Shown here piece by piece: positions 9,918 to 26,790 of a stretch of DNA of 64,000 bases. Position numbers and translations under genes: made by a program. Source of the stretch: Rhizobium freirei PRF 81. GTDB taxonomy: Bacteria; Pseudomonadota; Alphaproteobacteria; Rhizobiales; Rhizobiaceae. Position 1 is the stretch's first letter; every line of letters begins with the position of its first letter. The notes beneath the pieces are model-generated. The model made no database searches, was not told the DNA's origin, and was given only the letters and a program-made list of their open reading frames with translations. The DNA lies in NCBI RefSeq assembly GCF_000359745.1, contig NZ_AQHN01000055.1, positions 62,001 to 126,000 on the forward strand, read 5' to 3'.

Positions 9918-10490
9918 TTACATCCCCTGCGAGCCGCGATTCATCGCGGCGATGCCGGTGCGGCAGACTTCGATGAGGCCGAGCGGCTTGATAATGGCGA
10001 TGAACTGATCGATCTTCGAGGACTTGCCGGTGATCTCGAGAATGAAATGCTCGACGGTCGCATCCACCACCTTGGCGTGGAAGGCATCGGCCAGCCGCAA
10101 CGTTTCGGCGCGGGTCTCACCGCTTCCGGTCACCTTCAGCAGCGCCACTTCGCGCTCGATCGGCCGTTCCTGGCCGAGTTCGCGGGCGCGCACGGTCAGA
10201 TCGACGACGCGGTGAACGGGAACAATGCGTTCGAGCTGCGCCTTGATCTGTTCCAGCACCTGCGGCGTGCCGCGCGTAACGATGGTGATGCGCGACAGAT
10301 GGGCCTGATGCTCCGTCTCCGAGACGGTAAGGCTTTCGATGTTGTAGCCGCGACCGGAGAAGAGGCCGATGACGCGAGCGAGAACGCCAGGCTCGTTGTC
10401 GACGAGTACCGAAAGCGTATGGCTCTCGGCCGCCGCGGTTTCCGGCGAAATAAAATAGGCGGAGCCCGTGGGTTGAAGGTGTGCGTTCAT
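9918..10490 (-). CDS. ilvH: Acetolactate synthase, regulatory (small) subunit
   Basis: A 190-residue regulatory subunit. The ACT domain at about residues 22-95 is clear (SHTLSVLVDNEPGVLARVIG, LFSGRGYNIESLTVSETEHQ), followed by the C-terminal ALS_ss_C domain (EREVALLKVTGSGETRAETL). It binds valine or other branched-chain amino acids and confers feedback inhibition on the catalytic subunit. It lies 85 bases downstream of ilvI on the same strand and would share its attenuated transcript. ATG 10490 has AGGA upstream. Confidence 0.96.
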   Translation of the reverse strand: MNAHLQPTGSAYFISPETAAAESHTLSVLVDNEPGVLARVIGLFSGRGYNIESLTVSETEHQAHLSRITIVTRGTPQVLEQIKAQLERIVPVHRVVDLTVRARELGQERPIEREVALLKVTGSGETRAETLRLADAFHAKVVDATVEHFILEITGKSSKIDQFIAIIKPLGLIEVCRTGIAAMNRGSQGM

Positions 10491-10575: not shown

Positions 10576-12369
10576 TCAAACCAGCTGGCGGCCCTTGGCG
10601 TCGATGGCGTTGGCAACGGCCTCGTCGGTCGCTTCGTCCGGCAACAGCATCTCGTTATGCGCCTTGCCCGAGGGGATCATCGGGAAGCAGTTGGCGAGAT
10701 TGGCGACGCGGCAATCAAAAATGACCGGCTTCTTGACGTCGATCATTTCCTGGATGGCGGCATCGAGCTCACCCGGCTTTTCGCAGCGCAGGCCGACGGC
10801 ACCGTAGGCCTCGGCCAGCTTGACGAAATCAGGCATCGCTTCCGTATAGGAATTGGACAAGCGGTTGCCGTGCAGCAGTTGCTGCCACTGACGAACCATG
10901 CCCATGTACTGGTTGTTCAGGATGAAGATCTTGATCGGCGCGTTGTGCTGGATAGCCGCCGACATTTCCTGAATGCACATCTGGATCGAGGCATCGCCGG
11001 CAATGTCGATGACCAGGCTTTCCGGATGGGCGATTTGCACGCCAAGTGCTGCCGGCAGGCCATAGCCCATGGTCCCGAGGCCGCCCGAGGTCATCCAGCG
11101 GTTCGGCTGTTCGAAACCGAAGAACTGTGCCGCCCACATCTGGTGCTGGCCGACTTCCGTCGTGATGTAGGTGTCGCGATGCTTCGTCAGCTCGTAGAGC
11201 CGCTGGATAGCATATTGCGGCATGATGACATCGTCGCTCGGCTTGTAGGCGAAGGAATTGCGCGCACGCCAGCGGGCGATATTCCCCCACCAGTCGCCAA
11301 GCCGATCCGCCGCCGGCTTCTGCGGCAGCGCCCGCCACAGGCGAACCATGTCTTCCAGAACATTGCCGACATCGCCGAGGATGCCGATATCGACGTGAAC
11401 GTTCTTGTTGATGGACGATGGGTCGATATCGATGTGGATTTTCTTCGAATTCGGCGAGAAGGCATTGAGGCGGCCGGTGATGCGGTCGTCAAAGCGCGCG
11501 CCGATACAGACCATGACGTCGCAATCATGCATCGCCATGTTGGCTTCGTAGGAACCATGCATGCCCAGCATGCCGAGCCAGTTCTTGCCCGATGCCGGAT
11601 AAGCGCCGAGACCCATCAGCGTCGAGGTGATCGGGAAGCCTGTCAGCTCGACGAGTTCGCGCAGCAGCTTGGAAGCTTCCGGACCGGAGTTGACGACACC
11701 GCCGCCGGAATAGATGACCGGCTGGCGTGCATTCTTCATCAATTCGATCGCCTGGGTGATCTTGTTGAGATCACCCTGAACCTTTGGCTGATAGCTCTTC
11801 TGGGCGTCATGCGCTTCCGGCGGCGTATAGGTGCCGGTGGCAAACTGAACGTCCTTCGGAATGTCGACCACAACAGGACCAGGGCGGCCGGTCTGCGCGA
11901 TGCGGAAGGCTTCATGAATAACGGCGGCCAGCTGGTTGACGTCCTTGACCAGCCAGTTGTGCTTGGTGCAAGGCCGCGTGATGCCGACCGTATCGCATTC
12001 CTGGAAAGCGTCCGAGCCGATCAGCGACGTCGGAACCTGGCCCGTCAGGCAGACGAGCGGGATCGAGTCCATCAAGGCATCCTGCAGCGGCGTGACGGCA
12101 TTGGTCGCGCCCGGACCGGAGGTGACCAGCATGACGCCGACCTTGCCGGTGGAGCGGGCATAGCCTTCGGCCGCATGGCCGGCGCCCTGCTCGTGGCGGA
12201 CGAGAATGTGCTGGATGTCGTCCTGCTGGAAGATCTCGTCATAGATCGGAAGCACCGCGCCGCCCGGATAACCGAAAATGTGTTCGACGCCGTTGTCCTT
12301 GAGCGCCTGCAACACGATCTCCGCGCCTGTCATTCGATTGCCGCTCGCCTGATTATCTGTGCCGGTCAT
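10576..12369 (-). CDS. ilvI: Acetolactate synthase, catalytic (large) subunit
   Basis: A 597-residue ThDP/FAD/Mg-dependent enzyme that makes 2-acetolactate or 2-aceto-2-hydroxybutyrate, the first common step of valine, leucine and isoleucine synthesis. The ThDP-contacting Glu lies in VRHEQGAGHAAEGYARSTGK, and the ThDP motif is GDASIQMCIQEMSAAIQHNA. Other blocks are GYPGGAVLPIYD and LTGQVPTSLIGSDAFQECDT. I chose ATG 12369 because the next upstream ATG (12426) directly abuts the T-run of a terminator in the leader, leaving no room for a ribosome site. Expression is probably set by that attenuator. Confidence 0.96.
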   Translation of the reverse strand: MTGTDNQASGNRMTGAEIVLQALKDNGVEHIFGYPGGAVLPIYDEIFQQDDIQHILVRHEQGAGHAAEGYARSTGKVGVMLVTSGPGATNAVTPLQDALMDSIPLVCLTGQVPTSLIGSDAFQECDTVGITRPCTKHNWLVKDVNQLAAVIHEAFRIAQTGRPGPVVVDIPKDVQFATGTYTPPEAHDAQKSYQPKVQGDLNKITQAIELMKNARQPVIYSGGGVVNSGPEASKLLRELVELTGFPITSTLMGLGAYPASGKNWLGMLGMHGSYEANMAMHDCDVMVCIGARFDDRITGRLNAFSPNSKKIHIDIDPSSINKNVHVDIGILGDVGNVLEDMVRLWRALPQKPAADRLGDWWGNIARWRARNSFAYKPSDDVIMPQYAIQRLYELTKHRDTYITTEVGQHQMWAAQFFGFEQPNRWMTSGGLGTMGYGLPAALGVQIAHPESLVIDIAGDASIQMCIQEMSAAIQHNAPIKIFILNNQYMGMVRQWQQLLHGNRLSNSYTEAMPDFVKLAEAYGAVGLRCEKPGELDAAIQEMIDVKKPVIFDCRVANLANCFPMIPSGKAHNEMLLPDEATDEAVANAIDAKGRQLV

Positions 12370-12426
12370 ACGTTTGTTCCGCTGTCTGCTGGAGGTTTGG
12401 AAAGATGAAATCTCGATTTCGGGCAT

Positions 12427-12450
12427 AAAAAAAGGCCCCTTGGGGAGCCT
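12427..12450 (-). terminator. Attenuator terminator of the ilvIH leader
   Basis: Reading the minus strand, AGGCTCC-CCAA-GGGGCCT forms a 7-bp stem closed by a tetraloop and followed at once by seven T residues. It sits between the leader peptide and ilvI, so it can only act as a conditional stop for that operon. Confidence 0.85.
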
Positions 12451-12509
12451 GTCATCTAGCGCATGGGTGGCTGTCGCCGGATGGTTACACCATCCTGCCC
12501 ATGCGCCTT
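12451..12509 (-). promoter_or_regulatory. Upstream hairpins of the ilvIH attenuator
   Basis: On the minus strand GCGCATGGG pairs perfectly with CCCATGCGC, and inside that stem GGATGG-TGTAA-CCATCC forms a second hairpin that includes the leader stop codon. A ribosome stalled on the branched-chain codons would leave these arms in a different state from a ribosome at the stop, which is the usual switch between antitermination and termination. The alternative antiterminator pairing was not worked out in detail. Confidence 0.65.
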
Positions 12510-12541
12510 CCCACCACGATAAGAACCATCGAGTTTTTCAT
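12485..12541 (-). CDS. ilvIH leader peptide
   Basis: An 18-residue peptide, MKNSMVLIVVGRRMGRMV, encoded 116 bases before the ilvI start. Residues 6-10 are Val-Leu-Ile-Val-Val, so all three branched-chain amino acids sit in one run, as expected for a peptide that senses their charged tRNAs. It is followed by two nested hairpins and a T-run terminator. The match of peptide content, position and terminator makes coincidence unlikely. The leader has no obvious strong ribosome site. Confidence 0.85.
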   Translation of the reverse strand: MKNSMVLIVVGRRMGRMV

Positions 12542-12697
12542 GGGCCGAAGTGATAGACAGAAAATTTCGAAGCGTCAACGCGTGAAGCAATAAAAAATCG
12601 CGCTCGCCCCTATGCCAGATAAAAAGCACGGCTTGCCGACAGGGTTTTGTTAAGCCGCACTCCCTATGCTTTACCGTCTAACGCTTGGGGTAGCCGT

Positions 12698-26210: not shown

Positions 26211-26442
26211 TTTCCGCTCCGAAATCGCTTGAATTTTGTGGGCAACCGAATGCGCCAACGGTTGCCCGCCGCCTGCCGGCCGATTCCCTTTTTACAATTT
26301 TAGTGACAAGCCGGCGCGAAACCAACCGCGATGCAGAGTAATTCAGGCAAATCTCGCTTGGGCCTGCGGCAAACCGATGTTTCGGCGAAGCATTTGTGAC
26401 AATTGCCCTTCCCTTCGCCTGCGGAAAACACTATATCACCCT

Positions 26443-26790
26443 TGCCGGTCTTCGGGCCGGCTATGGCGATAAATGAGCGGTGTAATAAACCTATTGGACC
26501 CGGGGGCGGTACCCGGCGCCTCCACCAAAAACCGGCCGGCACGACGGCGACAGACCGGCTTTTGATGGGGGCGAAACAGGATCGACAAGGGTGTAAAGAT
26601 CGACTTTTCGCTCGGCATTGTACCGCCGTTATCGGGCTAAAATTGTAGTTGCAAACGACAACTATGCGGAAGCTCGTCTCGCTGCTTAATCGCGGTGTGA
26701 CACTTCAAATAAAGTCCTAAGGGGTCGCACTCTTAGGCGGGGTTCGAAGGCACCTGGCAACAGAAGCCTTCACCTTATCCTCCATTGCTA
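26443..26790 (+). ncRNA. ssrA: Transfer-messenger RNA, circularly permuted two-piece form
   Basis: Two tRNA-like halves and a tag reading frame are visible. The acceptor piece comes first and ends with the T-arm and CGCCTCCACCA at 26517-26527. After a 39-base spacer, the coding piece begins at 26567 with GGGGGCGAAACAGGATCGAC; its first seven bases pair with CGCCTCC of the acceptor end (one G-U pair). The tag is at 26651-26689. This order, acceptor upstream of coding, is the permuted gene layout of alphaproteobacteria, in which the precursor is cut into two RNAs. The outer ends are estimates. tmRNA rescues stalled ribosomes and tags the nascent chain; sspB follows directly. Confidence 0.95.
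26651..26689 (+). other. tmRNA proteolysis tag reading frame
   Basis: Codons from GCA 26651 to TAA 26689 read ANDNYAEARLAA. The C-terminal LAA is recognised by ClpX and the AND/NY segment by SspB. The resume codon is preceded by TAAAATTGTAGTT, the usual region read by SmpB. Confidence 0.95.

Follow-up and report, generated by a model that had tools for sequence, protein, structure and literature searches.

The question raised by this locus is whether the RNA that precedes ilvI in Rhizobium freirei PRF 81 works as a leader-peptide attenuator of the ilvIH operon and, if so, which parts make up the switch and which amino acids it reads. In the window (the whole stretch of 64,000 nucleotides that was analyzed), ilvI (acetolactate synthase large subunit, Pfam TPP_enzyme domains, 10576-12369 with the preferred start at 12369) and ilvH (small subunit, Pfam ALS_ss_C and ACT domains, 9918-10490) lie on the minus strand, as do all features of the leader described below. 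Sequence and family comparison place a leader ORF, MKNSMVLIVVGRRMGRMV, at 12485-12541, with its ATG at 12541-12539 and its TAA at 12487-12485. It reads Met-Lys-Asn-Ser-Met-Val-Leu-Ile-Val-Val-Gly-Arg-Arg-Met-Gly-Arg-Met-Val, with the control codons Val-Leu-Ile-Val-Val as codons 6-10 (12512-12526). An intrinsic terminator (12450-12427) sits between this ORF and the first gene of the operon. The original prediction, made from the letters alone, had described a leader peptide, nested hairpins and a terminator with seven T residues directly upstream of ilvI, and all of these were confirmed in the sequence.

Searching with cmscan matched positions 12417-12539 (minus strand) to the RNA family RF02502, Atu_C8, with 124.4 bits (E 3.7e-27) against a gathering score of 50 and with all model positions covered (1-122 of 122). 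Atu_C8 is a Rhizobiales sRNA named after Agrobacterium. Matches were found in 193 of the 199 genomes of the host's taxonomic family (187 above the cut-off) and in 148/148 genomes of the genus. Across the class they occur in 6 of 289 genomes, two of them above the cut-off and one of those two being the window's own genome. Among 111 family loci fetched from the better-scoring matches, a sample that leaves the weakest leaders outside, ilvI or an ilvI paralogue lies downstream on the same strand in 108. That Atu_C8 should be an sRNA only is hard to reconcile with the presence of a leader ORF linked to ilvI. The original reading of the region as an ilvIH leader-peptide attenuator is supported, and the element is already a known RNA family. 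In addition, 29 ilvI loci from other families of the class were searched for runs of branched-chain amino acids and for terminators, and no ORF with both was found; one locus (L239) has an ORF with LVLI and no terminator called, and four have a terminator without such a run, among them L231 with a short ORF seen by eye (MSKILVPRAPFLGRT). A separate search yielded MNNVVLIVGKQRMGR 5' of ilvI at locus L222. Elsewhere in the window, cmscan identified an alphaproteobacterial tmRNA (RF01849, 304.9 bits) at 26405-26774 on the plus strand.

The content of the leader peptide was compared after removal of partial and reverse-strand model matches and of identical leaders, which reduced 209 loci to 192 distinct leaders. 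In the 132 distinct ilvI-linked leaders, which include the paralogue-linked L032 and L035, the core tetrad is mostly LIVV or ILVV; Ile is kept by 130 of them, Leu by 128 and two or more Val by 127, with Ile and Leu in either order beside the Val pair. The two tetrads lacking Ile, LAVV and VLVV, match those of L032 and L035, both 5' of an ilvI paralogue. As the order varies while the content stays constant, the conservation points to the peptide, and RNA structure could hardly account for it. These leader ORFs carry codons for the end products of the operon, and the run of V, L and I, on whose conservation across related genomes the original prediction depended, is indeed conserved. The ORF also ends at the same structural position in 111/111 fetched loci, allowing for three that end one codon early and L031, which ends one codon late. 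Through this ORF the cell probably detects when Val, Leu and Ile run short.

Downstream of the control codons, alignment and covariation analysis define a long-range stem, P1, whose 5' arm (GCGCAUGGG, 12498-12506) pairs with its 3' arm (CCCAUGCGC, 12459-12467; 12506-12498 with 12467-12459). Nested inside P1 is the hairpin P2 (12479-12495), in which GGAUGGU (12495-12489) pairs with ACCAUCC (12485-12479) and the stop codon of the leader overlaps the loop. A further small hairpin, P3 (GGC-GACA-GCC, 12469-12478), was absent from the original prediction; 89.9% of its cells are paired and none of its pairs changed on both sides among 26 diverse leaders. The terminator, recognized by a terminator call and by alignment, is a stem-loop of 7 pairs (AGGCUCC-CCAA-GGGGCCU, 12433-12450) that runs into seven T residues (12427-12433), the first of which is paired. 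The terminator is present in 132/132 distinct ilvI-linked leaders, and both P1 arms, under a strict pattern, in 127/132.

The covariation test proposed with the original prediction was run on the same 26 diverse leaders, and the stems co-vary, above all P2. Overall, 96.1% of cells pair, and 35 cells show double-sided changes against a shuffled mean of 10.5, a value reached in 0 of 500 shuffles; pairs with a double-sided change number 8 against a shuffled mean of 3.1, and a control in which the partners were slid gave just 1-4 doubly changed cells. One of the five covariation measures, the number of further pair types, was unremarkable (22, where the shuffles averaged 20.6 and 110 of 500 were as high). 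Most of the signal resides in P2, where 6 of 7 pairs are doubly changed, and P1 is nearly invariant and less informative.

Upstream of the leader, a -35 element (TTGACG, 12573-12578) is followed, across a 16-nt spacer read from the sequence, by an inferred -10 element (CTATCA, 12551-12556). In 111/111 fetched loci, TTGAC starts 35-38 nt 5' of the leader ATG, whereas of 1110 control windows, each 70 bases long, 38 contain the motif. In the larger deduplicated set the motif falls between -39 and -34 in 131/132 ilvI-linked and 58/60 transporter-linked leaders (the latter are described below), the three exceptions being at -28 or -31 of the ATG chosen by the script. This fixed distance would place the transcription start at or within ~3 bases of the AUG, and the leader mRNA is, by its sequence, probably leaderless. 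A strict scan for E. coli-type promoters called none at the leader because the -10 box is weak. A second TTGAC promoter 3' of the leader ATG was considered and rejected, as such a motif occurs in 7 of 135 distinct ilvI-linked stretches against ~10.9 expected. A main start downstream of 12485, which would have spoken against the original prediction, is accordingly not indicated by any conserved TTGAC-type promoter 3' of the AUG, and the conserved promoter lies 5' of it. A term search for "ilv" or "ilvI" in the main texts of transcriptome or translatome papers (PMC10117765, PMC3616915, PMC2873474, PMC2881028, PMC10469942) gave no hit.

The leader had also been claimed to decide the start of ilvI. 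In the 125 loci in which the N-terminal motif of ilvI was found, all of them readable, an in-frame start codon lies 3' of the terminator in every case, and 81 of them have no stop in that frame across the terminator. That part of the claim stands; the ATG that touches the T-run (12426 in the window) is in frame in just 22 of the 73 loci possessing one and was rejected as not conserved. As it is so rarely in frame, the ATG at 12369 (MTGTDNQ...MTGAEIV) is preferred over that at 12426. Promoter position, peptide content, P1, P2, the terminator and the linkage to ilvI are all read from the sequence and its comparison among relatives.

How the switch might be thrown is less plain. A strong classical antiterminator was looked for and none was found: in the 103 of 111 leaders that have the anchor motifs, pairing of the terminator 5' arm was 0.22-0.47, compared with 0.48-0.67 when the upstream sequence was mononucleotide-shuffled, and it was lower at every ribosome position. 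What remains is a candidate of four pairs between GGGC (12497-12500) and GCUC within the terminator 5' arm (12445-12448), named for its pairing potential and predicted probabilities. The two strands can pair in nearly all leaders (97% of those linked to ilvI, 98% of those linked to the transporter), a match that is not independent proof because P1, the codons and the terminator constrain each strand and because the pair was itself chosen after inspection of the alignment. When 130 and 59 leaders, respectively, were folded with the ribosome at defined positions, the predicted probability of this pairing was 0.27 (ilvI-linked) and 0.38 (transporter-linked) when the A site was occupied by the last Val codon, and 0.34 and 0.43 when the ribosome stood a base further on; the remaining five states gave 0.00-0.01. 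For the ilvI-linked leaders the prediction is confined to a ribosome edge of 40-41. In the 103 leaders, pairing of the terminator 5' arm likewise climbs from 0.22 to ~0.45 when the P1 5' arm is covered. The window's own leader, folded with its 5' end masked, retains the terminator at all nine ribosome positions tried.

In these models, GGGC:GCUC is the sole conserved candidate antiterminator, a helix of four pairs with no covariation of its own, and the original description of the attenuator as complete, which named no antiterminator, was too strong. The proposal that all three branched-chain amino acids are sensed fares in part: it fits the conserved Ile, Leu, Val and Val, but under the footprint rule applied a stall at Leu or Ile would leave P1 intact, and the antiterminator strand would be freed solely by a ribosome whose A site has stalled on the last Val codon. 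Val may therefore dominate, and the last Val codon is predicted to matter most. A sequence UGCCC right after the T-run (12421-12425) could form base pairs with the GGGCA of P1, in 72% of the leaders linked to ilvI and in 95% of those linked to the transporter. This long-range pairing was set aside as part of the switch, because only transcripts that have already read through would contain it.

Ribosome stalling, the antiterminator and its effect, and the identity of the acting amino acids are what we infer, and the modeling is consistent with a classical attenuation logic with a weak antiterminator. With ample charged tRNAs, the ribosome would reach the stop codon at the P2 loop and cover GGGC in the P1 5' arm, and the terminator would form, leaving an RNA of ~115 bases that would be the Atu_C8 sRNA. 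When there is no translation, P1 would sequester GGGC and the terminator would form too. A ribosome stalled at the last Val codon would instead cover the base of P1, P1 would open, GGGC would pair with the terminator 5' arm and transcription would run on into ilvIH. Taken together, it is likely that ilvIH is controlled here by ribosome-dependent transcription attenuation, with a promoter that puts the mRNA start at or within ~3 bases of the leader AUG.

The same element also occurs in front of other genes. The host genome contains a second RF02502 match (G000:C91:145554-145674; L031:3555-3675) with the leader MNTALVLAVVGRRMGRMV, directly 5' of an MFS transporter (P0001) whose score against TIGR00710 (efflux_Bcr_CflA), 189.1 bits, falls short of the cut-off of 200.9. 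Across the 148 genomes of the genus, counted by eye, one match was found in 30, two in 116 and three in 2, so that 118/148 hold two or three, and in 12 of 12 further copies, picked from the better-scoring second matches in the genus, the element lies 5' of the transporter. A scan of named genomes for the transporter, which detects close relatives only and in part revisits genomes from the other searches, returned 67 loci (L153-L219), 57 of them with a leader upstream. Those 57 belong to Rhizobium, Mesorhizobium, Phyllobacterium or other Rhizobiales; the 10 without a leader comprise one cut off upstream, six from actinomycetes and three from archaea. The ORFs around three of the actinomycete relatives, listed without a family search, gave no hint of the substrate. 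By eye, leader and transporter are kept as a unit among differing neighbors.

In order to follow this linkage within the genus, the transporter was searched for (E up to 1e-80) in 61 genomes: every one of the 30 single-leader genomes, 29 of the 116 that have two leaders and the two that have three. Among the 31 searched genomes with several leaders, 14 contain the transporter, and a leader precedes it in 14/14; in the remaining 17, the second copy lies 5' of an ilvI paralogue in 17/17, the one at L320 being in pieces. Beyond the copies at ilvI and at the transporter, the two three-copy genomes have one leader 5' of an ilvI paralogue (L323) and one 5' of a different MFS-like ORF (L321). At L321 (G246:C79:32902-33020), the leader MEIRSVILVVVGMRMGRVA lies 173 bases 5' of this ORF of 386 amino acids, assigned to MFS by eye. 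Against full linkage, a relative of the transporter without a leader occurs in 3 of the 30 single-leader genomes (four loci, 46-62% identity, one in pieces). Outside the taxonomic family, at L220 (G449, another family of the class), the leader MRMMQVSVVVGRRMGKAA, with neither Ile nor Leu, is found at a transporter relative (49% identity), and the extrapolated start of this relative overlaps the leader end; leader and transporter could have been transferred there as a unit.

The control codons of these second copies are shifted. Among 60 distinct transporter-linked leaders, the core tetrad contains Ile in 12, Leu in 46 and at least two Val in 60/60, and VVV is present in 47/60 compared with 4/132 of the ilvI-linked leaders; some transporter-linked leaders have an Ile outside the tetrad. 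In this respect they may resemble ivbL, the ilvB leader of E. coli, which responds to Val and Leu and is not known to respond to Ile. The ilvI paralogues (L032, L305-L320, L322, L323), of 63-73% identity, likewise lie under a Val-rich leader in Rhizobium, and ilvH was not found in the stretches L305-L324. In five aligned paralogues, the ilvI stretch NNQYMGMVRQW, presumably an active-site stretch, is degenerate, and the paralogue may by its sequence be a pseudoenzyme. A quick tree of the leaders, built on a short sequence and with many weak forks, put transporter- and paralogue-linked leaders in one group of 80 rows with a support of 93, where the program's mark is 95. This group also holds L023, labeled ilvI and from a genome with two ilvI copies, and the two kinds are not cleanly separated.

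One account of these observations, which we offer tentatively and hold to be somewhat short of an even chance, is that the ilvI attenuator was duplicated, apparently once, and retuned from Ile, Leu and Val to mainly Val, and that it now switches a Bcr/CflA-like transporter and an acetohydroxyacid synthase (AHAS) paralogue seemingly without active-site residues. Together these could answer valine starvation caused by inhibitors of the branched-chain pathway, with the leader peptide serving as an inhibitor sensor for an efflux pump. A literature search found no description of a transporter-linked attenuator. As an attenuator of ilvIH the element is ordinary, and its interest lies in the second copies. 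One and the same RNA switch sits ahead of an amino-acid enzyme and ahead of a transporter, with differing control codons, and this amounts to a built-in test of the codons that the ribosome reads. It also offers a clue to what is carried by the transporter, which is present in Rhizobium, Mesorhizobium and Phyllobacterium.

The second copies also bear on other explanations of the region. The terminated RNA might act mainly in trans as an sRNA, or through a functional micropeptide, or both, with attenuation of ilvIH secondary or additional. Rfam classes RF02502 as an sRNA gene, extra copies persist beside other genes in the genus, and in S. meliloti the attenuator RNA rnTrpL acts in trans and its peptide, peTrpL, is functional, according to the portion of PMC7298713 that concerns it. 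This explanation is nevertheless unlikely: the core peptide tracks the downstream gene, with Ile kept before ilvI and mostly absent before the transporter, and a purely trans role does not require the leader to adjoin ilvI or its paralogue, as it does in 108/111 loci.

That the conserved Ile, Leu, Val and Val, and their shift before the transporter, would serve no purpose argues against a terminator that is not switched by the ribosome and that merely sets a constant low level of ilvIH, with control at the promoter. The weak antiterminator would fit such an arrangement, as would the action of Lrp at the E. coli ilvIH promoter (described in a section of PMC6123439), and we consider it improbable. 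A translation-independent RNA sensor, either a T-box or a riboswitch, would likewise present itself as a conserved structured 5' RNA ahead of a biosynthesis operon. However, RF02502 is the only gathering-level Rfam match in the region, with no T-box or riboswitch family reaching that level; the leader ORF is present in 111/111 fetched loci; and, if the transcript starts at the AUG, its first 35 bases are coding. Such a sensor is hardly to be expected here.

The proposed ribosome-dependent attenuator of ilvIH is of a known kind and has been published in kind before, and the comparison presented here firms up the published prediction. Rfam labels Atu_C8 an sRNA gene, whereas its full-length match in the window is read here as the ilvIH attenuator. 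Valverde et al. 2008 list an "ilvIH cis regulatory" element for S. meliloti, citing Vitreschak et al. 2004 (PMC2573895), and an alphaproteobacterial "ilvB leader peptide" is termed previously described with the same citation in PMC1273637; as far as the relevant passages of these papers go, gene and position are the same as here. The leader coding sequence of Caulobacter ilvBN/ilvIH, with tandem Ile and Val codons, is said in a passage of PMC4117421, citing Tarleton 1994, to attenuate the same operon and is alike by that description; RF02502 itself reaches 6/289 genomes of the class. The trpL leader of S. meliloti is leaderless, the 5' end of rnTrpL being the AUG of the leader ORF in the account of PMC7298713; it has Trp codons where the present leader has Val, Leu and Ile, and the predicted promoter position here fits a start at the AUG. 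In E. coli, ivbL is likewise an AHAS attenuator with a longer peptide, in which 11 of 32 amino acids are branched-chain (as stated in a section of PMC6123439), and the likeness is at the level of the peptide. To the known attenuator, the sequence comparison would add three things: a probably leaderless promoter, a candidate antiterminator and the Val-shifted second copies.
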